Shown here: positions 8,919-20,305 of the stretch, piece after piece
Numbering within the stretch: position 1 is the first letter of the stretch
How the letters are laid out: every line of letters begins with the position of its first letter
Origin: Azotosporobacter soli
GTDB lineage: Bacteria; Bacillota; Negativicutes; SG130
Reading direction: 5' to 3'
NCBI RefSeq assembly: GCF_030542965.1
Contig: NZ_JAUAOA010000002.1
Coordinates: 62,001-126,000 of the forward strand
DNA: 64,000 nt
Translations under genes and position numbers: made by a program
The notes under the pieces: generated by a model
The model's input: the letters and a program-made list of their open reading frames with translations, nothing else
Database searches by the model: none
What the model was told of the DNA's origin: nothing

Positions 8919-10016
8919 TCACGGGCATAAAACAATGCTTCTCGCCCAAAGACAATCGCCGCAAGCCGGCGTTATCCCCCAGCAGTCAGCTTCGTTATCC
9001 TGCGACATAACGCAACCGTCAACCTGCGGACAATCGGTACAGGACGGATAGAGATTATTCCGCACCGTGTAGCGAAAAACGCGATAGGATGCTTCCGTCC
9101 ATATCTCTGACAGCGATTTCTCGTTCAGATTACCGAAGGACTGGGCCTTGACCTTTTTTTCACGCCCCATGATATAGCAGGTGTAATTGTGCAGAAACGC
9201 ATAACAAGGGCTGACTTCGCCCGTTGCCGAAATGACCATCGCCTTATCCTGCACGAATTTGCAGTCTCGCCACGAAGTGATTTCGAATTTCCCCATTGTC
9301 AAAATCGATAACATCGAAGCGTCGCTGCCGAATTTTTTCAGATCCGGCGTCGCTTCGCCATAGAGGATCTGCTCCTTCATGCTTTCATGGTAGGGCAACA
9401 GATTCGTAAGCAGCAGCTTATTGGCGCGCAATTCATTCGCCAGTCGGCGAATCGCCGGAATCTGCTGATAATTATCCTTCATCATCACAAACTCTACGCC
9501 AAGCAGCGGACGCATCTTTTTCTTCGCTTTCTTCATCGTCTGCAACATGCGTACCGCGTCCGTCACCTCGGTAAAGCCGGCTGCGCCGGGGCGAATTTGC
9601 TTGAAGGATTTCTCATCCGGCCCATCGAGCGAAACAAACAGCCATTCAAGCTCCAAATCAATCAAACGCTCGAGCATCGACGGCGTAAGCAGCGAACCAT
9701 TCGTAATCATTTCCGTTTTATAACCGTTTTTTTTGCAAAGCGCGAGCATTGCGAGAATATCAGGGTGAAGCAGCGATTCGCCAAAACCGCCAAAATGAAT
9801 GGTTTTAATGTCGGGAAATTCCTGCGCATCGGCAAGCAGTTTTTCAAACAGCGCGAACGGCATGTATTCATCTTTTTCGCGCCAGGAATGTCGAATACAG
9901 GTAATGCAACTGAAATTGCAGGCAGAGGTAACTTCCAAGTACAGCTTGCGCGCATCGTTTCGTTTCGGCAAAAGAATTGTTTCTTCCCCGGTATTCCAAC
10001 GGACGCATTCTTCCAT
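8919..10016 (-). CDS. Radical SAM/SPASM protein, resembles tungsten-cofactor oxidoreductase maturase
   Basis: 365 residues. CNFSCITC near residue 33 is the CxxxCxxC radical SAM cluster motif, followed by the glycine-rich FGGFGESLLHP. The C-terminal half is rich in cysteines (CKFVQ, SPCYAF, CTDCPQVDGC, CWGITPACGDCLW, LCP), as in SPASM proteins with auxiliary clusters. The ending GDCLWARSIVLCP and the opening ARKLYLEVTSACNFSC recall the maturases found beside tungsten aldehyde oxidoreductases. No such tungsten enzyme is visible here; the mop operon is 3 kb away. Start at 10016 has GGAGG 9 nt upstream. The radical SAM assignment is firm, the maturase subclass is from memory. Confidence 0.8.
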   Translation of the reverse strand: MEECVRWNTGEETILLPKRNDARKLYLEVTSACNFSCITCIRHSWREKDEYMPFALFEKLLADAQEFPDIKTIHFGGFGESLLHPDILAMLALCKKNGYKTEMITNGSLLTPSMLERLIDLELEWLFVSLDGPDEKSFKQIRPGAAGFTEVTDAVRMLQTMKKAKKKMRPLLGVEFVMMKDNYQQIPAIRRLANELRANKLLLTNLLPYHESMKEQILYGEATPDLKKFGSDASMLSILTMGKFEITSWRDCKFVQDKAMVISATGEVSPCYAFLHNYTCYIMGREKKVKAQSFGNLNEKSLSEIWTEASYRVFRYTVRNNLYPSCTDCPQVDGCVMSQDNEADCWGITPACGDCLWARSIVLCP

Positions 10017-11766: not shown

Positions 11767-11997
11767 TTATGAGCAGCAGCCCGGCGAGATGTCGGCTCCC
11801 GTATCGCCCGCATATTCAATCGCGCCGGAAGGACATTTTTTCTGACAGCCCCGACAACCGTGGACACAGCCTACCGGCTTCACCACGACCGGCTTACCGG
11901 GCTTTTTTTCATACACGCCATTACGACAAAAGTTGATGCAAATTTCGCAAGCCGAGCATTTTTCTAAATCCACAACCGGATACCACGTTTCAGACAT
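11767..11997 (-). CDS. 4Fe-4S dicluster ferredoxin with CC tail
   Basis: 76 residues from ATG 11997 (GGGAG 8 nt upstream). First cluster motif CSACEICINFC, second CVHGCRGCQKKC, followed by a C-terminal GCC. It begins 26 nt after the ArsR stop and is the last clear member of the arsenic/lipoyl gene block. Probably a small electron carrier; the terminal Cys pair could alternatively bind a soft metal(loid). Confidence 0.85.
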   Translation of the reverse strand: MSETWYPVVDLEKCSACEICINFCRNGVYEKKPGKPVVVKPVGCVHGCRGCQKKCPSGAIEYAGDTGADISPGCCS

Positions 11998-12023
11998 CAA
12001 GTTCACTCCCTTTAAACAATTTA

Positions 12024-12347
12024 TCATTTTAAGAACTTCAGCAATTCCTGACTATGTCCGATTTGGTCGCTTAACGTCTTTTCCGCCGCGCTGATTAACG
12101 CTAACACCGAAGGATAGGAAATTTTATAAATGACTTTTTGCCCGTCTTTTCGCGATTCGATCAGTCCCTGCCGCTTCAAGACGCCAAGATGCTGCGAAAA
12201 GTTTGATTGTTCGATATCGATTTGCTCAATCATTTCACAGACGCATCGCTCACCGTCCGTAAGCATCAGCAAGATTTTGATTCGCGCCGGATGTCCAAGC
12301 GTTTTGAACAATTCTGCGGTCAGCTTGACTACTATATCTTCGGCCAT
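12024..12347 (-). CDS. arsR: ArsR-family metalloregulator
   Basis: 107 residues, a winged helix-turn-helix of the ArsR/SmtB family: LFKTLGHPARIKILLML, then ERCVCEMIEQIDIEQSNFSQHLGVLKRQGLI. The CVC pair in the recognition region matches the alpha-3 ELCVCD site that ArsR uses for As(III)/Sb(III). GGAGG precedes ATG 12347 by 9 nt. It follows the TauE permease gene by 72 nt and precedes a ferredoxin by 26 nt. It probably represses this block and the arsDA genes at 18-20 kb in the absence of arsenite (inference). Confidence 0.85.
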   Translation of the reverse strand: MAEDIVVKLTAELFKTLGHPARIKILLMLTDGERCVCEMIEQIDIEQSNFSQHLGVLKRQGLIESRKDGQKVIYKISYPSVLALISAAEKTLSDQIGHSQELLKFLK

Positions 12348-12419
12348 GCCGTCAATCCTCCTACTTAAGTTTGAATAAAAGCGCTGCCGTCTTCCTCGTT
12401 ATCCACGACAAACTACAAT

Positions 12420-13151
12420 CTAGCGCAGCATCGTATAAATTTTATACAGCGTCATAGCCACGATAAGAATTCCAAACATCTGTTTTATCTTATCACTCGG
12501 CAGATAGACGCTGCTCAAGCGCGCCCCGGCAAAAGAACCAATCGCACCGACAACGAGCAGAACGCCAGTCAGGCTCATATCGAACTGCGCAGTCGGTAAA
12601 TGCGGAATCAGCGACGAAAACGATGGAAATGTCACAGCCACCGCGTTAATACCGGCGGCCTTTTTTGCTTCAAATCCGAGAATGATCAGCGTCGGCATCA
12701 GCAAAAAACCTGGCCCAACGCCTAAGAATCCGCTCAGGATGGAAATCGGCACGGCAAACAGACACGCCAGTTTTAAGTTTTCTTCGACGATTCCGCTCGT
12801 CGTCTTCCTGAATAATTTGTAGGCTAAAAAAATCACCGATGCCAGGTAGGCATACCAAACATAGGCGGGCGTCGCTGTCTGTACCAGATAAGCGCCGAGC
12901 GGAGCCGAAAGCGTCGTCACAATCGACAGAATTCCCGCCTTACGCCAATCGATATGCCCGCCCATCGCAAAACCAAGCGCAGCGAAGATTGCCGTAAGGC
13001 CGTTTAATAGCAGGCTCACCGGTTGAACCTGATGCACAAGATCCGGCATAAACAAGCCCAGGAACGGCACTGCCGCAAATGCAACGCCCAGCCCCAGCAT
13101 ACCGGAAATAATCGCTAGCAGGAACAAGCCGCCAACCATTAGCAAACTCAT
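12420..13151 (-). CDS. TauE/SafE-family permease
   Basis: 243 residues with about eight hydrophobic segments and the family glycine signatures GMLGLGVAFAAVPFLGLFMP and GFLGVGPGFLLMPTLI. The family exports sulfite, sulfoacetate, thiosulfate or related anions across the inner membrane. It is 45 nt after a DGC protein gene, at the end of the lipoyl operon and next to arsR. No ArsB or Acr3 gene is close to arsDA, so this is a candidate for the missing anion permease; that link is inference only. Confidence 0.85.
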   Translation of the reverse strand: MSLLMVGGLFLLAIISGMLGLGVAFAAVPFLGLFMPDLVHQVQPVSLLLNGLTAIFAALGFAMGGHIDWRKAGILSIVTTLSAPLGAYLVQTATPAYVWYAYLASVIFLAYKLFRKTTSGIVEENLKLACLFAVPISILSGFLGVGPGFLLMPTLIILGFEAKKAAGINAVAVTFPSFSSLIPHLPTAQFDMSLTGVLLVVGAIGSFAGARLSSVYLPSDKIKQMFGILIVAMTLYKIYTMLR

Positions 13152-13196
13152 ACCGCCACCCCTTTTCTCCGCGACGCGATCTCCCTCGTACGCAGT

Positions 13197-13622
13197 TTAT
13201 TTTACTTGTTCTGCTTTGATCAGCACATCATATTCTTCACTGATTGCAAGCGTCGTCTTGTCAATCATCTTTTGATGTTCCGCTGTCAGATCGCGCGTCG
13301 ACAGCGCCGGGCCCTCTGCCATTTCATCGCCGATCAAATCCGAAACCAGAATCGCCGCGCTCACCGCGCCGCTGTATTTCTCGATTGCCCGTCTGGCGCA
13401 AGCCTTATTGCAGCCGTCAACCGCAATCGTCGGAAACTCCTTGGCAAACGTTCTTTCTTCCTGCCCGCCGGCCAGAAAGAGCGGCAGGCAAATCGTCACC
13501 GTTTTGTCCGGTTGGATTTCGTCCATGATTTTGCGAGTCGCCAGGCGCGAAATCGTGCCGCCCAGACATTCTTCGCCGCTGCAGGACACTACGCCGAATT
13601 TAACTTCTCGTGCTTCACTCAT
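13197..13622 (-). CDS. DGC-domain putative zinc-binding protein
   Basis: 141 residues. VVSCSGEECLGG near the N-terminus and the family signature AVDGCNKACARRAIE near residue 71 define the DGC group (conserved cysteines, presumed zinc binding, function unknown). Third of three related proteins encoded in tandem, starting 2 nt before the end of the previous gene region (ATG 13622, GAGAGGGGCGATAGC). A soft-metal or persulfide thiol role is possible. Confidence 0.8.
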   Translation of the reverse strand: MSEAREVKFGVVSCSGEECLGGTISRLATRKIMDEIQPDKTVTICLPLFLAGGQEERTFAKEFPTIAVDGCNKACARRAIEKYSGAVSAAILVSDLIGDEMAEGPALSTRDLTAEHQKMIDKTTLAISEEYDVLIKAEQVK

Positions 13623-13623
13623 G

Positions 13624-14034
13624 CTATCGCCCCTCTCCTGCCACTTCGCGCACCTTGGCTTCCAGTCTGGCCGCGATGTCGTCCACGATCGTCCAGCCGC
13701 CTTCGGTCAGTGCCGTAGCGGTACCCGGCTGCACGCCTCTATGTTCCTTGACGACGTCGAGAACCTTAAACCGTTCTTTGACATCGCCGCCCATTGCAGC
13801 AACGCTTTTCGCCGCGCAAAGCATCGGACAGCCGTCGATCGTCAGACAAGGCTGCTCAGCAATGCGCATTTTCGCTTCCTTATCCCCGGTGACGAGATAG
13901 GCCAGGCAAATCGTCTCCGCTTGCTCCGGGCAAAGCTTCGTCACTGTCTGCAGCGTGGCTTCCCTTGACATCAGGCCATACACTTTGCCCATGCCGCTGC
14001 AGGGTATGATCTTGACTTTGCTGTTATTTGACAT
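13624..14034 (-). CDS. DGC-domain putative zinc-binding protein
   Basis: 136 residues from ATG 14034 (GGTGG upstream), overlapping the stop of the preceding gene by 11 nt, so translation is coupled. IIPCSGMGKVYG, CLAYLVTGD and TIDGCPMLCAAK are the DGC-family cysteine motifs. Paralogue of the flanking 13197-13622 protein and of the N-terminal half of 14024-14887. Function unknown. Confidence 0.8.
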   Translation of the reverse strand: MSNNSKVKIIPCSGMGKVYGLMSREATLQTVTKLCPEQAETICLAYLVTGDKEAKMRIAEQPCLTIDGCPMLCAAKSVAAMGGDVKERFKVLDVVKEHRGVQPGTATALTEGGWTIVDDIAARLEAKVREVAGEGR

Positions 14035-14887
14035 GAAAATCATCCACCTTTTTCTTCAGAATCTTCATGTAACCCTCGGTCGTCAATAGAAAATCCACTT
14101 CCTCGGCAAAATTCGTCAGCTCCAGTTCGGCGATCCAGCCTTTTTCATAAGGACTCTGATTGATAAACTCCGGCGCGCTGGCCAGTTCCGCATTCACTGC
14201 GACGACTTTGCCGCTGACCGGGCAGATGACTTCAAAAACCGCTTTGCCGGATTCGATGACGCCCGCCTCGTCAAACTGTTCTAACTCGCTATCAAGATTC
14301 GGCGGCGTGAAGAACATGATATCCGACAAACTTTGCTGCACATAATCGGTCACGCCGATCCGCGCCCGGTTGCCGCTGACCTGCAGCCAGCAATCGTTTT
14401 CCGTAAAATAAAAACCTTCGGTCGGCACGCGAAAGATGAACTTGTCTCTCGTATAAACCGCAAAATCATTCGGCGTCTGATAAACCGTTTCTGCGCCGCT
14501 GTCTTCTTTTGCCGTTTCCGTTTCTTTGCTCAGTTCTGCTGCCAGTTCAACGGCCAGTTTCCGTTCTGCTTCGCTCAGACGAAGCGTGTCTGTCGGCAAA
14601 ACGCAGCCGCGCTCTTTCGCTTCTGCGCTGACGGTCATTTTTTTTTGGATCTTCAGGTTTTTTGCTGCAGCCAGCTTGCTGGCGCAGCGCATGCCGCAGC
14701 CGTCGATAACAAGCAGCGGGTTTTCTTTGACGCTTGTATCATATTTGCTCTCCGCCACCTGATAGAGCACCGGGCAAATCAAATCGCTTTCCGTCTTTTC
14801 GCAGATGGCAAGCGCAATTTCCTTCGTGATTTGTCCGGCGCACTTATCGAGTCCGTTGCAGGGCAGCACCGCATACTTGCTACTCAT
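14024..14887 (-). CDS. Fusion of DGC domain with GcvH-like lipoyl carrier domain
   Basis: About 287 residues. Residues 1-115 form a DGC domain (VLPCNGLDKCAGQ, VIDGCGMRCASK). After a charged linker, residues about 160-285 resemble glycine-cleavage H protein: NDCWLQVSGNRARIGVTDYVQ, then ESGKAVFEVICPVSGKVVAVN, where the lysine occupies the lipoylated position (ESVKA in GcvH), then SPYEKGWIAELE. It is therefore probably lipoylated by the ligase at 17101 and reoxidised by the E3 at 15580. No glycine-cleavage P or T protein is present. ATG 14887 overlaps the ferredoxin stop codon (ATGAGTAG). The fusion looks unusual. Confidence 0.85.
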   Translation of the reverse strand: MSSKYAVLPCNGLDKCAGQITKEIALAICEKTESDLICPVLYQVAESKYDTSVKENPLLVIDGCGMRCASKLAAAKNLKIQKKMTVSAEAKERGCVLPTDTLRLSEAERKLAVELAAELSKETETAKEDSGAETVYQTPNDFAVYTRDKFIFRVPTEGFYFTENDCWLQVSGNRARIGVTDYVQQSLSDIMFFTPPNLDSELEQFDEAGVIESGKAVFEVICPVSGKVVAVNAELASAPEFINQSPYEKGWIAELELTNFAEEVDFLLTTEGYMKILKKKVDDFHVK

Positions 14888-15173
14888 GCCCCTCACCCCC
14901 GCCGCGAATCTCCTTGATATGCTTCGATACGTCCGCTTTGTTCGGGAACGTCAGCGCGTCCGGGCCGCAGGTCTTGCCGCAGGCGCGGCAAAAAACGACG
15001 CAATTGTTCGGATTGGCGACGACTAATTTCTTTTCTTCATTTTCACGCTTCTCATAGACTTTATGCGGACAAAAGTCAAAGCATTCCATGCAGTAGTCGC
15101 ATTTTGAATAATCGATCGTCGGTTTCCAGTCAATCTTGTCACGCGCTACGCCCATGAAAGTTTCTTCGCTCAT
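14880..15173 (-). CDS. 4Fe-4S ferredoxin
   Basis: 97 residues. CDYCMECFDFCPHKV and CVVFCRACGKTCGPDAL are two cysteine clusters of a dicluster ferredoxin. Follows the HdrA-N-like gene by 2 nt and overlaps the DGC-H fusion by 8 nt, so it belongs to one translationally coupled operon. Likely shuttles electrons between the flavin enzyme, HdrA-like protein and the lipoyl carrier (inference). Confidence 0.85.
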   Translation of the reverse strand: MSEETFMGVARDKIDWKPTIDYSKCDYCMECFDFCPHKVYEKRENEEKKLVVANPNNCVVFCRACGKTCGPDALTFPNKADVSKHIKEIRGGGEGHE

Positions 15174-15175
15174 TT

Positions 15176-15553
15176 TTATTCAACCCCCATTTCTTCAAGC
15201 GCTTTTTCTACTTTTTTCACTGCATCCTGCGTGTTCATATCGCGAATGTCGAGCGCCACCAAATCTTTCGTTATATCCAGCCCCGCTTCTTTAAAAGCAT
15301 CGCGAAACATTTTCATCTGCATGTTTTTCGCGCATGCGCCGATGACCATCGGTCGATCCGCCTTTAACAGGTCTGCCAGAAAACGATCGCCGTCTTCTTC
15401 GCACAGTTGCGGATGAATGAAGCCGTATTCCACCGGCAGTTCGACGCGTACCTGATTGATAAAGTCCCAGATATCCATTTGGCTAAAGCCGGGGCATTTG
15501 CCCGTGCACACGCACATGATAAAACCGGGACGTTTTTTTTCTGCTGTTTCCAT
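15176..15553 (-). CDS. HdrA N-terminal-domain-like protein
   Basis: 125 residues from ATG 15553 (GAGGGGG 9 nt upstream). The opening GFIMCVCTGKCPGF, the central HPQLCEEDGDRFLADLL and PMVIGACAKNMQMKMFRDAF match the N-terminal domain of heterodisulfide reductase HdrA, without its FAD and ferredoxin parts. In HdrA this region binds an Fe-S cluster. It lies between the lipoamide dehydrogenase and a ferredoxin, fitting a disulfide/dithiol redox module. Homology is judged by eye. Confidence 0.6.
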   Translation of the reverse strand: METAEKKRPGFIMCVCTGKCPGFSQMDIWDFINQVRVELPVEYGFIHPQLCEEDGDRFLADLLKADRPMVIGACAKNMQMKMFRDAFKEAGLDITKDLVALDIRDMNTQDAVKKVEKALEEMGVE

Positions 15554-15579
15554 TTTAGTATCCCCCTCTAATTTATGCA

Positions 15580-16962
15580 TTATTTATGAATAGCCCTGCC
15601 GATCGCATCGGCGCAGGCTTCCATTACCGCTTCACTGAGCGTCGGGTGCGGATGCACCAGATCGGCCAGCACGTCCGCCTTCAGTCCAAGCGCTACCGCC
15701 AGCGTCAGTTCCGAAATCAGTTCCGTCGCCTCTGCGCCAAGAATTTGCGCGCCTAAGATGACCTGCGTCTTCTGATCGGTCACCACTTTGACCAAGCCGT
15801 CGCGTTCGCCCAGCGCCAAGGCGCGTCCATTGTTGCGAAACAGGAAGCGACCGACGCGAACCTCATATCCGGCCGCAATCGCTTCGCCTTCATTCAGACC
15901 GACCGTTGCCAGTTCCGGCTGGATGTAAACGCAGGCCGGGATCGTCTGCGGCGTAAGCGAAGCAGAAAAACCCAACGCATTTTCAACTGCAGCTTTTCCT
16001 TCCGCATACGCCTTATGCGCCAGAAGTCGGCCGCCGGTCACGTCGCCTGCCGCATAAATGCCGGGAATGCTGGTCTCAAAACGTTCATCGACCAGCAGCG
16101 CACCTGACGGAGAGACCGCCGCGCCAAGCGCTATGAGTTCCGCCGGCACGGACGGTTTGCGACCGGCAGCCAACAGCACATGGCTGGCCTCCAGAGACAC
16201 TTCTTTGTCGCCAACAGCAAACGTCAGCACCGCGCCGCCTTCGTGCGGCTTTATTTCTCTGACGCTTGCCGCAGTCTGTATTTGCACGCCCTGCCTTTTC
16301 AAAAGTTTCAGGACTTCCCCCGCCATTTCGGCATCTTCCTGCGGCAAGACCTGTTCGGCCATTTCAAGCACCGTTACCTTGCTTCCAAGGCCGCTGAACA
16401 TTTGGGCAAATTCAAGACCGATCGCGCCGCCGCCGATAATCGCCAGACTCGTCGGCGTTTCCGTCAACGACAGCAATTCGTCGCTTGTCATGGCCAGCTC
16501 CGCGCCGGGAATAGCCGGACGTACCGAAGCCGATCCTGTCGCGACAAGGATTTTTTTACAGCGCAGGACAGCGGTATCTTCAAGCATTTCCACTTTTACT
16601 TCCTCTGGACTGACAATGCTGCCGCGTCCGCGAAAGACGCGAATCTTATCGTTTTTCAACAAATGTTCCACGCCCAGACGCAGGCTCTTGATCACCCGCT
16701 CTTTGCGGCTGTGCGCGGTCGGCCAGATTACGAGCGGCGCTTGCTCCGTCACGCCGAATTCCTTTCCCTTGCGCCCGAGTACGGCCAGTTCCACCGTGCG
16801 CAGCAACGCTTTCGTCGGAATACAGCCGCGATTCAGGCAAACGCCGCCGAACTCATCCTGCTCGACAATCGCAACCGTTGCTCCGAGTTGCTCCGCACGG
16901 ATCGCCGCCAAATAGCCCGCTGGTCCGCCGCCGAGAATCACAATTTCATAGATCGCGTTCAT
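15580..16962 (-). CDS. lpdA: Dihydrolipoyl dehydrogenase (E3)
   Basis: 460 residues, the usual E3 length. FAD site VILGGGPAGYLAAIRAEQLG, redox disulfide GGVCLNRGCIPTKALL, NAD site AIIGGGAIGLEFAQMF, second FAD motif YAAGDVTGG, and the C-terminal dimer-interface HPHPTLSEAVMEA with the active-site His-Glu pair. It oxidises protein-bound dihydrolipoamide with NAD+. First gene of the operon; no E1/E2 or gcvPT genes nearby, so its partner is most likely the DGC-H fusion at 14024. ATG 16962 follows GAGGTGGGTG. Confidence 0.93.
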   Translation of the reverse strand: MNAIYEIVILGGGPAGYLAAIRAEQLGATVAIVEQDEFGGVCLNRGCIPTKALLRTVELAVLGRKGKEFGVTEQAPLVIWPTAHSRKERVIKSLRLGVEHLLKNDKIRVFRGRGSIVSPEEVKVEMLEDTAVLRCKKILVATGSASVRPAIPGAELAMTSDELLSLTETPTSLAIIGGGAIGLEFAQMFSGLGSKVTVLEMAEQVLPQEDAEMAGEVLKLLKRQGVQIQTAASVREIKPHEGGAVLTFAVGDKEVSLEASHVLLAAGRKPSVPAELIALGAAVSPSGALLVDERFETSIPGIYAAGDVTGGRLLAHKAYAEGKAAVENALGFSASLTPQTIPACVYIQPELATVGLNEGEAIAAGYEVRVGRFLFRNNGRALALGERDGLVKVVTDQKTQVILGAQILGAEATELISELTLAVALGLKADVLADLVHPHPTLSEAVMEACADAIGRAIHK

Positions 16963-16985
16963 TTTTCACCCACCTCAAATAGCGC

Positions 16986-17014
16986 TTGCTTATTATATGA
17001 CAAATTTATAAAAT
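16986..17014 (+). promoter_or_regulatory. Candidate sigma-70 promoter for lplA
   Basis: TTGCTT at 16986-16991 and TAAAAT at 17009-17014 are separated by 17 nt, in the 138-nt gap between the divergent lpdA and lplA genes. Seen by eye only. Confidence 0.45.
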
Positions 17015-17100
17015 AGTAATGTAACTGTTTCCAGTATATGTCCGATTCATTTCTCCGTCAACCGTTTCTCCCCTATCAATTACCGCAAAGGAGAGTAGAC

Positions 17101-18096
17101 ATGCTGCATATTCTGAATGCTTCGAACGACCCTTGCTTCAACCTGGCCTTGGAAGAATACTATCTAAAGCAAACAAATTTCACGCAAGACCTCGTCATCT
17201 TATGGCGCAACCGCCCGACCGTCGTCATCGGACGCAACCAAAACCTTGCAGTCGAAATCAACGATGCGTTCATTGCCGAAAAGGACATCCGGGTTGTTCG
17301 CCGCCTTTCCGGCGGCGGCGCGGTTTACCATGATCTTGGCAATCTGAACTTCAGCTTTATCACCGCCGCTCCGGCCATCAGCCGGGATGCCTTCGCCCGT
17401 CTGACATTGCCAGTCCTTGACGCGCTGGCATCATTCGGCGTAGAGGCCGAATTCACCGGCCGTAACGATCTGACGATCAGCGGACAAAAATTTTCCGGCA
17501 ACGCCCAGTATTTCCATCAAGGTCGCCTGCTGCACCATGGCACGTTGCTCTTCGACAGCGATCTGACCGTCCTGTCGCAAGCGCTCTCCGGCTCCGAATC
17601 GAAACACACCCGCCGCGCCGTCCCCTCGGTACGCAGCGCGGTGACGACGATCCGTCCCCATCTGCCGCTCGGCACGACAGCGGCGGAATTTGAAGCCGCC
17701 TTGCTCGACGCGATCTTCAGCCGCTCCAAGAAACCCTATCAACAATACAGCCCTTCGCCAAGCGAGCTGCAGGCGATCGAAGCGCTCGCGCGCGATCGCT
17801 ACCGAACGCGCGCCTGGACCTATGGCTCGTTGCCGCATTTTAACCACTGCGTCAAACGCACTTTTAGCGGCGGCACCGTTGAAGTCTTGCTCGATATCAA
17901 AAATGAAACGATCGTCACCTGCAAAATATGCGGCGATTTTTTCGTCTCCGGTGAAATCAGCGACTTGGAAACTGCACTGTGCGGCGTTGCCCGGACGCAG
18001 GAAGAAATACGCGGCGTTCTTTTCCCCTGGCTGCAAGAACACCCGATCGACAACATTACGGCGCAAGAGGTACTGGGTTGCTTCTTTACCTTATAA
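17101..18096 (+). CDS. lplA: Lipoate-protein ligase A
   Basis: 331 residues starting at ATG 17101 with AAAGGAGAG 6 nt upstream; the open frame extends further 5' but has no site there. Signatures: the opening NDPCFNLALEEY, WRNRPTVVIGRNQN, VRRLSGGGAVYHDLGNLN (lipoyl-AMP binding) and GRNDLTISGQKFSGNAQ, plus the C-terminal accessory domain. It adenylates free lipoate and attaches it to carrier lysines. Divergent from lpdA and the DGC-H carrier, so the local set has a ligase, carrier and E3. Confidence 0.93.
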   Translation: MLHILNASNDPCFNLALEEYYLKQTNFTQDLVILWRNRPTVVIGRNQNLAVEINDAFIAEKDIRVVRRLSGGGAVYHDLGNLNFSFITAAPAISRDAFARLTLPVLDALASFGVEAEFTGRNDLTISGQKFSGNAQYFHQGRLLHHGTLLFDSDLTVLSQALSGSESKHTRRAVPSVRSAVTTIRPHLPLGTTAAEFEAALLDAIFSRSKKPYQQYSPSPSELQAIEALARDRYRTRAWTYGSLPHFNHCVKRTFSGGTVEVLLDIKNETIVTCKICGDFFVSGEISDLETALCGVARTQEEIRGVLFPWLQEHPIDNITAQEVLGCFFTL

Positions 18097-18104
18097 ATTT
18101 ACAA

Positions 18105-18145
18105 GGGGCAGAGCGAAACAAAGAGTTTCGTTCTGCCCCTTCTTT
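18105..18145 (+). terminator. Intrinsic terminator of lplA
   Basis: GGGGCAGAGCGAAAC pairs with GTTTCGTTCTGCCCC, followed by TTCTTTC. It lies between the convergent lplA and arsA genes. Confidence 0.8.
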
Positions 18146-18154
18146 CGCAGGCCT

Positions 18155-19906
18155 TTATTGAATCAATTGTTTGAGTTTTTCTGCCTTGATTTCTTCCCCT
18201 TGCCAGGGAATGACGGCAAAGTTTCCTTGGGATATGGTGTCGATCTTGTTGATCCAAGGCACTTCACTCAATGATTTCGCTTTTAAGAGCGGGCTTTGCG
18301 TGTTCGTCATCAACAAACTCGAATTAATGACCCACCATTTGTTAGTGATGCCGGCCCGTTGCAAATCTTCCTGCAAGCGCATCGCTTCATAGACCGGCGT
18401 CGCTTCCGGCAACGTCACGATGACGACTTCGGTTTCCTGTTCATCACGCAGGCGCGGCAGCAATTTTTTCACCGACTCCGGGATATCGCCTTGCGAGCGC
18501 TGGATTTCCTTATGGTAGCTTTGCGTCGCATCGAGCAGCAGCAGCGTATGTCCGGTCGGTGCGGTATCAATAACGACAACTTCGTTGTCGGCCTTGTCGA
18601 CAATTTCGGCGAAAGCCCTAAAGACCGCAATCTCCTGTGTGCAAGGCGAGCGCAGATCTTCTTCCACATAGGCGACATCCTCTTCTTTCATCGTCTCTCT
18701 CGCTGTCGCCAATACTTCCTCGGTATATTTTTGCAGCTCGACTTTTTCATCGATCTTGCTGATCGTGATGCCATTGCCCTCTTCGACTACGAATTTCAAA
18801 TGATCCGCCGGATCGGTCGTAGTCAGATGCACTTTAGCGCCTTTTTCCGCCAGTCCCAAGGCGATCGCTGCCGCCAAAGTCGTCTTGCCGACGCCGCCTT
18901 TGCCCATCGTAAAGATGACGCGTTTGCCGGTGCGATGCAGGTCGTCAATCAAAGCTTTGATCTTCGGCAGTGTAGTCTTGTGCAGTTTGTGCTTATCGGT
19001 TTCAATGTAGTCTTCTTTCAGCAGCATGCGGATGCTCTTGATTCCGGCCACGTTATAGGCGCGAAGCGGAATCGTATAGGTAGCAACATCTTGCAAACCA
19101 AGCGGCATTTCAGCTAAAGCCGCCTGCTGTTTTTCATACAGTTGATCGGCAATGTCATCGTCTTCAATATCCATTTCCAAAACGCCGTTTACTACCAAAA
19201 TTTGATTCATGACGCCGATTTCTTTCAACTCACCTGCCGCGCGTTCCGCTTCCTGCAGCGGCGAAAACTCAGGTCGCGACACCAGCACTAACGTAGTCAG
19301 CTTTCCGTCTGCCAATGTGGCTACCGCATTTTTATAGACTTCTTTCTTGCTTTCAAGGCCCGAAAGTTGCCCCAGGCACGAAGCGCCGTGCGTGCTTTCG
19401 CTGATAAAGTTGCTCCAGGCCGACGGCAGCTGCAGCATTCTGAGCGTGTGTCCGGTCGGTGCGGTGTCAAATAGGATATGATCGTAGTCCTGCTGCGTTT
19501 TCGCATCGGTGATGAAATTGGAAAACTCGTTGAACGCCGCAATCTCTACCGTGCAGGAACCGGACAGCTGCTCTTCCATGTTTTTCAGCACGCTCGGCGG
19601 CAACTTGCCGCGGTAAGGTGCAATCACCGATTCCTTATATTCTGCCGCAGCCTGCTCCGGGTTAAGATTGGCCACGACCAGATTCGGAATTTCCTGAATC
19701 GCTGTTCCTTTGCTGTTCAGCTCAATGCCGAACACATCTTGTAGGTTGGATGCCGGATCGGTACTGACCAATAGCACTTTTTTTCCCTGATCCGCCAGGA
19801 CGGCAGCAGTGGCGCAAGCGGTTGAGGTTTTGCCGACGCCGCCTTTGCCGGTGAAAAACAGATATTTTGTTAATGTTATTTCATCTGGATTAAATTGATT
19901 ATACAT
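18155..19906 (-). CDS. arsA: ArsA arsenite-transport ATPase
   Basis: 583 residues with two tandem nucleotide-binding halves, each with a deviant Walker A (GKGGVGKTST near residue 20, GKGGVGKTTL near 335) and the DTAPTGHT signature. The metal-binding cysteines known from E. coli ArsA are present in context: SGSCTVEIAAF, GASCLGQL and RSPCTQEIAVF. It energises arsenite/antimonite efflux with a membrane partner; no ArsB/Acr3 gene adjoins it. ArsD precedes it by 24 nt in the same operon. Confidence 0.95.
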   Translation of the reverse strand: MYNQFNPDEITLTKYLFFTGKGGVGKTSTACATAAVLADQGKKVLLVSTDPASNLQDVFGIELNSKGTAIQEIPNLVVANLNPEQAAAEYKESVIAPYRGKLPPSVLKNMEEQLSGSCTVEIAAFNEFSNFITDAKTQQDYDHILFDTAPTGHTLRMLQLPSAWSNFISESTHGASCLGQLSGLESKKEVYKNAVATLADGKLTTLVLVSRPEFSPLQEAERAAGELKEIGVMNQILVVNGVLEMDIEDDDIADQLYEKQQAALAEMPLGLQDVATYTIPLRAYNVAGIKSIRMLLKEDYIETDKHKLHKTTLPKIKALIDDLHRTGKRVIFTMGKGGVGKTTLAAAIALGLAEKGAKVHLTTTDPADHLKFVVEEGNGITISKIDEKVELQKYTEEVLATARETMKEEDVAYVEEDLRSPCTQEIAVFRAFAEIVDKADNEVVVIDTAPTGHTLLLLDATQSYHKEIQRSQGDIPESVKKLLPRLRDEQETEVVIVTLPEATPVYEAMRLQEDLQRAGITNKWWVINSSLLMTNTQSPLLKAKSLSEVPWINKIDTISQGNFAVIPWQGEEIKAEKLKQLIQ

Positions 19907-19930
19907 GGTTATCCTCCTACGCTTCTGTGC

Positions 19931-20305
19931 TTAGCAGCAGCCATCGCCGCCGCAGCAACTAAAAACTTTTTTCTTTGCCGGAGCCGGCGCTATTTCTTCC
20001 AGTGCAACGCCGGACCATTTTGCAAACTCTTCATTCGTGAGATATGCTTTTGTTTTTACCACTTGGCCGTCAACAACGGTGATCGGCAGAACCTGAACAT
20101 CTTCTTTTACCAGATATTCATTGACGAGCTTATTATCGACAAACGCCTGCGGTTCACTAGACAATCCATAGCGTGAAACCGTGACGCCTTTGGCAGTCAA
20201 GTTGCTTAGCGTCGTCGTCACGCGCAGCAAGTCAGGATCGACTCCCGGGCCGCATAACCCCGTCGGGCAACACATGGCCGGATCAAAAATTTCAATTTTA
20301 CTCAT
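19931..20305 (-). CDS. arsD: ArsD arsenite metallochaperone
   Basis: 124 residues from ATG 20305 (AAGGAGTGATCAGC upstream; the longer frame has no site). DPAMCCPTGLCGPGVDP carries the Cys12-Cys13-Cys18 As(III) site of the family, and the C-terminus has two vicinal pairs (CCGGDGCC) as in E. coli ArsD. It delivers trivalent As/Sb to ArsA, encoded 24 nt downstream. Confidence 0.95.
   Translation of the reverse strand: MSKIEIFDPAMCCPTGLCGPGVDPDLLRVTTTLSNLTAKGVTVSRYGLSSEPQAFVDNKLVNEYLVKEDVQVLPITVVDGQVVKTKAYLTNEEFAKWSGVALEEIAPAPAKKKVFSCCGGDGCC

Follow-up and report, generated by a model that had tools for sequence, protein, structure and literature searches.

The question raised by this locus of Azotosporobacter soli is why a set of lipoate, ferredoxin and DGC-domain genes should lie beside genes for arsenic resistance. 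The locus occupies positions 11767-20305 of a 64,000-nucleotide stretch of contig NZ_JAUAOA010000002.1 (assembly GCF_030542965.1, positions 62,001 to 126,000), referred to here as the window. The first-pass annotation had described arsD-arsA, a lipoate-protein ligase gene and a row of redox genes including a DGC-GcvH fusion, and all the named genes were found where it had placed them. Comparison with other genomes reveals a conserved core whose linkage to arsenic genes is strong. The gene set is best read as an accessory module of arsenic detoxification, built on a dedicated lipoylated carrier, in which a thiol relay would reduce or transfer an arsenical; the probability of this reading is put at roughly 55%.

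Gene content and organization of the locus

The genes of the locus are given below by their window coordinates.

19931..20305, minus strand: arsD, As(III) metallochaperone (PF06953, 1.7e-44; NF033727, 128 bits, cut-off 90; Cys12-13-18 and C-terminal CC pairs)
18155..19906, minus strand: arsA, two-domain arsenite-pump ATPase (TIGR04291, 855 bits, cut-off 650; two GKGGVGKT loops)
17038..18096, plus strand: lplA, lipoate-protein ligase (TIGR00545, 366 bits, cut-off 280)
15580..16962, minus strand: lpdA, dihydrolipoyl dehydrogenase, second copy in the genome (TIGR01350, 492 bits, cut-off 409)
15176..15553, minus strand: protein resembling the N-terminal domain of HdrA, hereafter HdrA-N (profile match to HdrA PDB chains, E=3e-5; five invariant Cys)
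14880..15173, minus strand: fdx1, 2x[4Fe-4S] ferredoxin (Fer4 families)
14024..14887, minus strand: DGC-GcvH fusion, predicted lipoyl carrier (PF08859 and PF01597; invariant ES[GA]KA lysine)
13624..14034, minus strand: DGC2, DGC-domain protein (PF08859, 8e-14; invariant C15, C46, C72, C76)
13197..13622, minus strand: DGC3, DGC-domain protein (PF08859, 2e-18; invariant C14, C45, C71, C75)
12420..13151, minus strand: TauE/SafE-family permease (PF01925, 8e-32)
12024..12347, minus strand: ArsR/SmtB regulator with Cys35-Val-Cys37 (NF033788, 93 bits)
11767..11997, minus strand: fdx2, second ferredoxin, ending in GCCS (Fer4)

The nine genes from lpdA to fdx2 follow one another at intergenic distances of -11 to +72 bp. 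Such tight spacing makes a single operon likely, as had been proposed for the genes from lpdA onward, and the nine are probably read as one transcript. The spacing between arsD and arsA is 24 bp. Since lplA points away from lpdA and towards arsA, arsDA forms a separate transcript, and lplA is probably a third. For the HdrA-N gene the conserved start at 15553 was used, the listed open reading frame beginning at 15580.

ArsD and ArsA, both above the cut-offs of the families that define ArsDA-type efflux (NF033727 and TIGR04291), retain the CCxxxxC motif and the two P-loops with Cys118/177/422, respectively. RRLSGGGAV is likewise intact in LplA, as are the redox motif CLNRGC at residue 42 and the C-terminal HPHPTLSE at 437 that mark LpdA as a dihydrolipoyl dehydrogenase. 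The Cys-X-Cys box of ArsR is typical of As(III) sensors. Compared with canonical arsRDA(B/acr3)C operons, the ArsR, ArsD and ArsA of the window are of the normal type, with conserved cysteines, whereas an adjacent ArsC and a dedicated exporter are lacking and the lipoyl/DGC/ferredoxin operon is added. An ArsB-family match on another contig has the look of an ion permease of general type and was left out of the count of arsenite exporters.

The divergent promoter region between lplA and lpdA (window 16963-17037) contains an AT-rich ATTTTATAAA-type element, a putative operator, and a similar element lies upstream of lpdA in loci L038-L042. Elements of this type, present upstream of lpdA in several Negativicutes, were considered as the operator of ArsR, a role that could not be demonstrated.

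A core conserved across genera and linked to arsenic genes

In 5 of 301 Negativicutes genomes, the window genome included, and in further Firmicutes, this gene order is found around homologues of the HdrA-N protein with 61-87% identity, and searches with the fusion protein recover additional module loci. The core recurs in 23 loci, found in eleven Firmicutes genera besides that of the window. It is complete and contiguous, as lpdA-HdrAN-fdx1-DGC/GcvH-DGC2-DGC3, in 14 of them (L038-L042, L072, L073, L079, L092-L094, L096, L097 and L099); the other nine (L074-L078, L095, L098, L100 and L101) keep the five genes from HdrAN onward, with lpdA absent or displaced, and fdx1 is kept in every core locus. 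An lplA gene is located within 10 kb of the core in L039, L040, L073, L079, L093 and L097-L100, and lipA in L042. TauE-type genes also recur close to module loci, the ArsR proteins near the module in L038 and L040 are 70-77% identical to that of the window, and an fdx2-type ferredoxin gene directly follows DGC3 in L092, L093, L095, L096 and L098, with a copy 78% identical to fdx2 in the ars island L198. As the core is conserved across genera, the clustering of its genes is not due to chance. When genome contigs were scanned with the fusion, Lucifera butyrica was the single relative obtained, and among the plasmid matches listed for the same query only ordinary GcvH-type proteins, covering less than half of it, were present.

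The surroundings of these loci were compared at equal width, about 6 kb on each side and cut at contig ends, and genes for Acr3, ArsC, ArsA, ArsD, ArsM, ArsP/SaoE permeases, ArsE-type thioredoxin and DUF2703 were counted as arsenic-linked. The comparison included 20 other DGC loci, which were the best matches of a sample of the phylum, one per genome, and three of which represent the divergent lipoyl form described below. Arsenic-linked genes were present within 6 kb of 16 of the 23 module loci and of 19 of the 20 other DGC loci, against 2 of 20 canonical GcvH loci (Fisher p = 8e-5 for the module and 3e-8 for the other DGC loci). The first-pass interpretation is supported in part, in that the set is a conserved module with arsenic linkage in many genomes. 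With the strict set of acr3, arsC, arsA, arsD and arsM only, the counts became 11/23, 16/20 and 1/20, respectively. The nearest Acr3 gene is found 3-20 kb from the module in at least one genome of each of eight genera, and a test of the module-acr3 distance in which each genus is represented by its worst genome, with p=1 where the two are on different contigs, gave a combined p of ~1e-5. Furthermore, acr3 scores above the cut-off in 17 of 21 module genomes versus 121 of 250 genomes of the phylum sample (p=0.003), and in close relatives the DGC loci outside the module adjoin ArsM, acr3, ArsP/ArsE or DUF2703 in nine cases of ten. The arsenic link of the module is strong; extending it to DGC proteins in general makes a stronger claim than that of the first-pass annotation.

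The arrangement of some individual loci says more than these counts. Both module copies of Lucifera butyrica run into arsC-arsR-acr3 (L041, L042). In L099 the order is acr3-arsC-arsR, lpdA with the module, three genes for lipoyl-only proteins, and lplA. Behind the module of L079 come lplA and a gene for a single ferredoxin-DUF2703-ArsM fusion, and just upstream of the module in L078 an ArsM-type methyltransferase gene is placed between two arsR genes. The divergent form, seen in three genomes (L174, L175 and L196), consists of acr3 and then, on the same strand, unfused gcvH-DGC2-DGC3-OsmC-lpdA; lplA follows in all three and lipA only in L174 and L196, and genes for FmdE, TauE and a rhodanese are found between acr3 and gcvH in L196. 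The usual recurrent partners are acr3, ArsP/SaoE permeases, ArsM and stand-alone DGC proteins. The adjacency of ArsDA, by comparison, did not survive as a conserved trait: arsDA is directly beside the core only in the window genome, and occurs within the wider island in L093, L168/L196, L197 and L198.

Some further features of these regions were recorded. In the fused protein of L079 (12655-14307), ferredoxin, DUF2703 (DF family (seleno)protein) and arsenite methyltransferase parts form one chain. L099:11039-11958 and L073:17316-17886 hold two or three consecutive genes for small lipoyl-only proteins, next to genes for DGC proteins and a lipoate ligase. A cysteine desulfurase-family gene (TIGR01977), sometimes accompanied by a PF04060 Fe-S protein, is found beside the module in L073, L074, L076, L077, L092, L095 and L097-L101. 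A weaker relative of HdrA-N (~40% identical) forms a three-gene set, ArsR-ferredoxin-HdrA-N, that occurs without the lipoyl core in other Firmicutes (L081-L091) and often adjoins arsC-acr3 (L081, L085-L087, L090) or arsDA.

A dedicated lipoate system with a predicted carrier

GcvH, lpdA and lplA are generic lipoate genes, and the module might simply be part of glycine cleavage or of a 2-oxoacid dehydrogenase, located beside arsDA by chance. This explanation is scarcely credible, as the window cluster contains no gcvT, gcvP or E2 gene, the arsenic linkage is conserved, and elsewhere in the same genome (L106) gcvT-gcvH-gcvPA-gcvPB form a complete operon, after which come a lipoate-ligase-like gene and an lpdA of its own, 42% identical to the lpdA of the window. 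Membership in glycine cleavage is ruled out on gene content, and given this other gcv set the window genes are a second, dedicated lipoate system and not the housekeeping set.

Alignment of 21 fusion proteins shows no variation at the lipoyl lysine (K215, in the ES[GA]KA motif) or at the four DGC cysteines, and alignments of the stand-alone DGC proteins and of the HdrA-N protein show their cysteines to be likewise conserved. The GcvH half of the fusion is an H-protein both by sequence (PF01597, 1.9e-31) and by fold (TM 0.92 to 1onl). In the AlphaFold model of the fusion (mean pLDDT 88, pTM 0.54) both domains are confident and the position of one half with respect to the other is uncertain; the corresponding values for DGC3 are pLDDT 87 and pTM 0.83. 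Together with the adjacent lplA, and with lipA in relatives, the attachment-lysine motif makes the DGC-GcvH fusion a predicted lipoyl carrier.

All three DGC-containing proteins of the window are above the PF08859 cut-off and display the DGC motif and conserved cysteines. Their fold gave no PDB match below E=0.001, no solved relative being found, and profile comparison detected no homology between DGC and the HdrA-N protein. Among the control genomes, only Methanosarcina acetivorans has a DGC-domain protein. The HdrA-N protein, 126-134 amino acids long, gave no Pfam or convincing NCBIfam match; its profile matches the N-termini of three distinct HdrA structures, only over about HdrA residues 1-106, and the FAD/thioredoxin-reductase domain of HdrA is not present in the window protein.

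A proposed thiol relay for arsenicals and its alternatives

Dihydrolipoyl dithiols bind trivalent arsenic tightly. In the relay proposed here, LplA would lipoylate the invariant lysine of the fusion protein and LpdA, with NADH, would hold the lipoyl arm as the dithiol, which would swing to pass electrons, or bound arsenic, to the cysteines of the DGC proteins. The ferredoxin and the HdrA-N protein would provide a second electron entry, linking the relay to low-potential electrons. Its substrate would be arsenate, methylated or thiolated arsenic, or As(III), which would be reduced or transferred, and the product would be disposed of, depending on the genome, via export by ArsDA, Acr3, an ArsP-type or TauE permease, or via methylation by ArsM; ArsR would control the module. 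From the gene anatomy we infer a path from NADH to LpdA, lipoyl-DGC-GcvH, the DGC cysteines and finally the arsenical, and with it lipoylation, electron direction, substrate, exporter and regulation. TauE is, by position only, a candidate membrane partner or exporter.

A related path is found in lipoamide dehydrogenase-Ohr/OsmC chains, in which lipoylated proteins, working with lipoamide dehydrogenase, supply Ohr/OsmC-type thiol enzymes with reducing equivalents (PMC5962072). The likeness lies in the sequence of NADH, LpdA, lipoyl protein and cysteine enzyme, and in the OsmC of the divergent module; the differences are the dedicated carrier, the DGC partners, the ferredoxin, the HdrA-N protein and the arsenic context of the module, and the absence of OsmC from the window operon. 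Such reduction by lipoylated proteins fits a reductant role of the module, and the OsmC of the divergent form speaks for a relay that works by thiol reduction.

A GcvH-like lipoyl carrier outside glycine cleavage is also known from sHdr sulfur oxidation, whose lipoate-binding protein LbpA has no role in 2-oxoacid or glycine metabolism and whose archaeal clusters add lpdA (Cao et al. 2018, PMC6067878). With this system the module shares such a carrier, including the attachment lysine (PF01597), a dedicated lipoate ligase, an HdrA-related protein and, as in the archaeal clusters, LpdA. However, its carrier is fused to DGC, two more DGC proteins are added, and it is linked to acr3, arsDA and ArsM; moreover, no hdrB, hdrC or full-length hdrA was present among the main genes identified between 8.9 and 22 kb of the window. 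The analogy drawn earlier with sHdr complexes consequently stands for the lipoyl carrier and the HdrA-N relative and falls for HdrB, HdrC and an FAD-bearing HdrA, which the operon does not contain; full sHdr membership is ruled out by the missing HdrB and HdrC.

The comparison nevertheless brings up a module for sulfur transfer, resembling the sHdr lipoate carrier in an arsenic setting, in which a cysteine desulfurase or rhodanese would load sulfane sulfur on the lipoyl and DGC thiols, arsenic would be thiolated or thioarsenates desulfurated, and TauE would move the sulfur product. Besides the sHdr precedent and the HdrA-N relative within the operon, this is suggested by TIGR01977 cysteine desulfurase-family genes within 6 kb of 10 of the 23 module loci and 7 of the 20 other DGC loci, compared with none of the 20 canonical GcvH loci, and by rhodanese genes in L072 and L196 and TauE genes in many loci. 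The window operon itself, however, is without HdrB, HdrC and full HdrA, no cysteine desulfurase or rhodanese gene is near the window module, and the OsmC of the divergent version points to reduction. We regard sulfur transfer as unlikely; its thioarsenical step is still the strongest rival, and could be the same pathway as the arsenical relay.

Several points weigh against the arsenical relay. The arsenic link is one of genomic association, and linkage to an arsenic island does not fix the substrate; the cysteine desulfurase, rhodanese and TauE genes that are also frequent near modules fit a role in sulfur. Several loci share one genus, so that the raw counts are not independent, and the reference panel was partly drawn from module neighbourhoods, which favours the module count and not the counts for other DGC or control loci. 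Around seven of the 23 module loci (L072, L073, L093, L094, L095, L098 and L100) none of the arsenic-linked genes occurs within 6 kb, and acr3 is missing from genomes G342 and G407, the latter having ArsM instead. In the window genome, no ArsB/Acr3 or exporter gene is found next to arsDA, and no Acr3 scores above the cut-off anywhere in the genome.

Two further alternatives were considered. As As(III) poisons lipoyl enzymes, the module could be an arsenic-proof set of spare ligase, E3 and a sacrificial lipoyl protein that soaks up As(III) or protects central metabolism, with no reaction of its own. It is established that trivalent arsenicals bind to lipoate in dehydrogenase complexes (PMC12608789), and extra stand-alone lipoyl proteins are found beside the module in L073 and L099, but three DGC domains, HdrA-N and ferredoxin genes in fixed order and the fusion of DGC to GcvH are left unexplained, and we consider a spare set improbable. 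Quite improbable, too, is another metal or metalloid substrate (antimony, mercury, zinc or copper), with the arsenic genes co-travelling in multi-metal islands. SaoE/SO_0444-type permeases and cation-diffusion exporters do recur, fdx1 and fdx2 weakly resemble HgcB, and annotations of DGC proteins mention possible zinc binding; however, the recurrent partners are acr3, arsC, arsDA, ArsM and DUF2703, and ArsR has its Cys-X-Cys box.

Lipoate is a classic target of arsenite poisoning, and a dedicated lipoyl carrier paired with arsenic exporters and methyltransferases would turn this target into a tool. Tentatively, and as a serious possibility, the lipoylated DGC-GcvH carrier would bind or reduce arsenicals in anaerobes, giving lipoate a third physiological use after 2-oxoacid/glycine metabolism and sulfur oxidation and making DGC a new family of arsenic-handling thiol proteins. 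The module combines known kinds of system, namely ars islands and lipoyl-E3 thiol relays. Its recurrence beside arsenic-detoxification genes in many anaerobes points to undescribed arsenic handling, and it supplies candidates, open to test, for steps still missing in the reduction, methylation or thiolation of arsenic by anaerobes. For the DGC family, found next to arsenic genes in almost every Firmicutes locus of the sample, it provides a functional lead.

In the open-access literature, judged by titles and abstracts, no description of acr3 and lipoyl genes joined in this way was found, although one may exist elsewhere, and a search there for DGC and arsenic gave nothing useful; the earlier remark that no described ars system is known to have this gene set agrees with that literature. 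The ars regions of Fusibacter 3D3, of the anaerobic Firmicutes, resemble the module in having ferredoxin genes beside ars genes, near arsC, and differ in that the main text describing them names no lipoate, DGC or heterodisulfide-reductase genes (PMC9751042).

Outside the locus, window positions 8919-10016 (minus strand) encode a radical SAM/SPASM protein that scores above the cut-off of the TIGR04317 maturase family. Homologues (33-45%) adjoin acr3 or arsR in L038, L097, L099 and L197, the last with two copies, and the protein may belong to arsenic islands.

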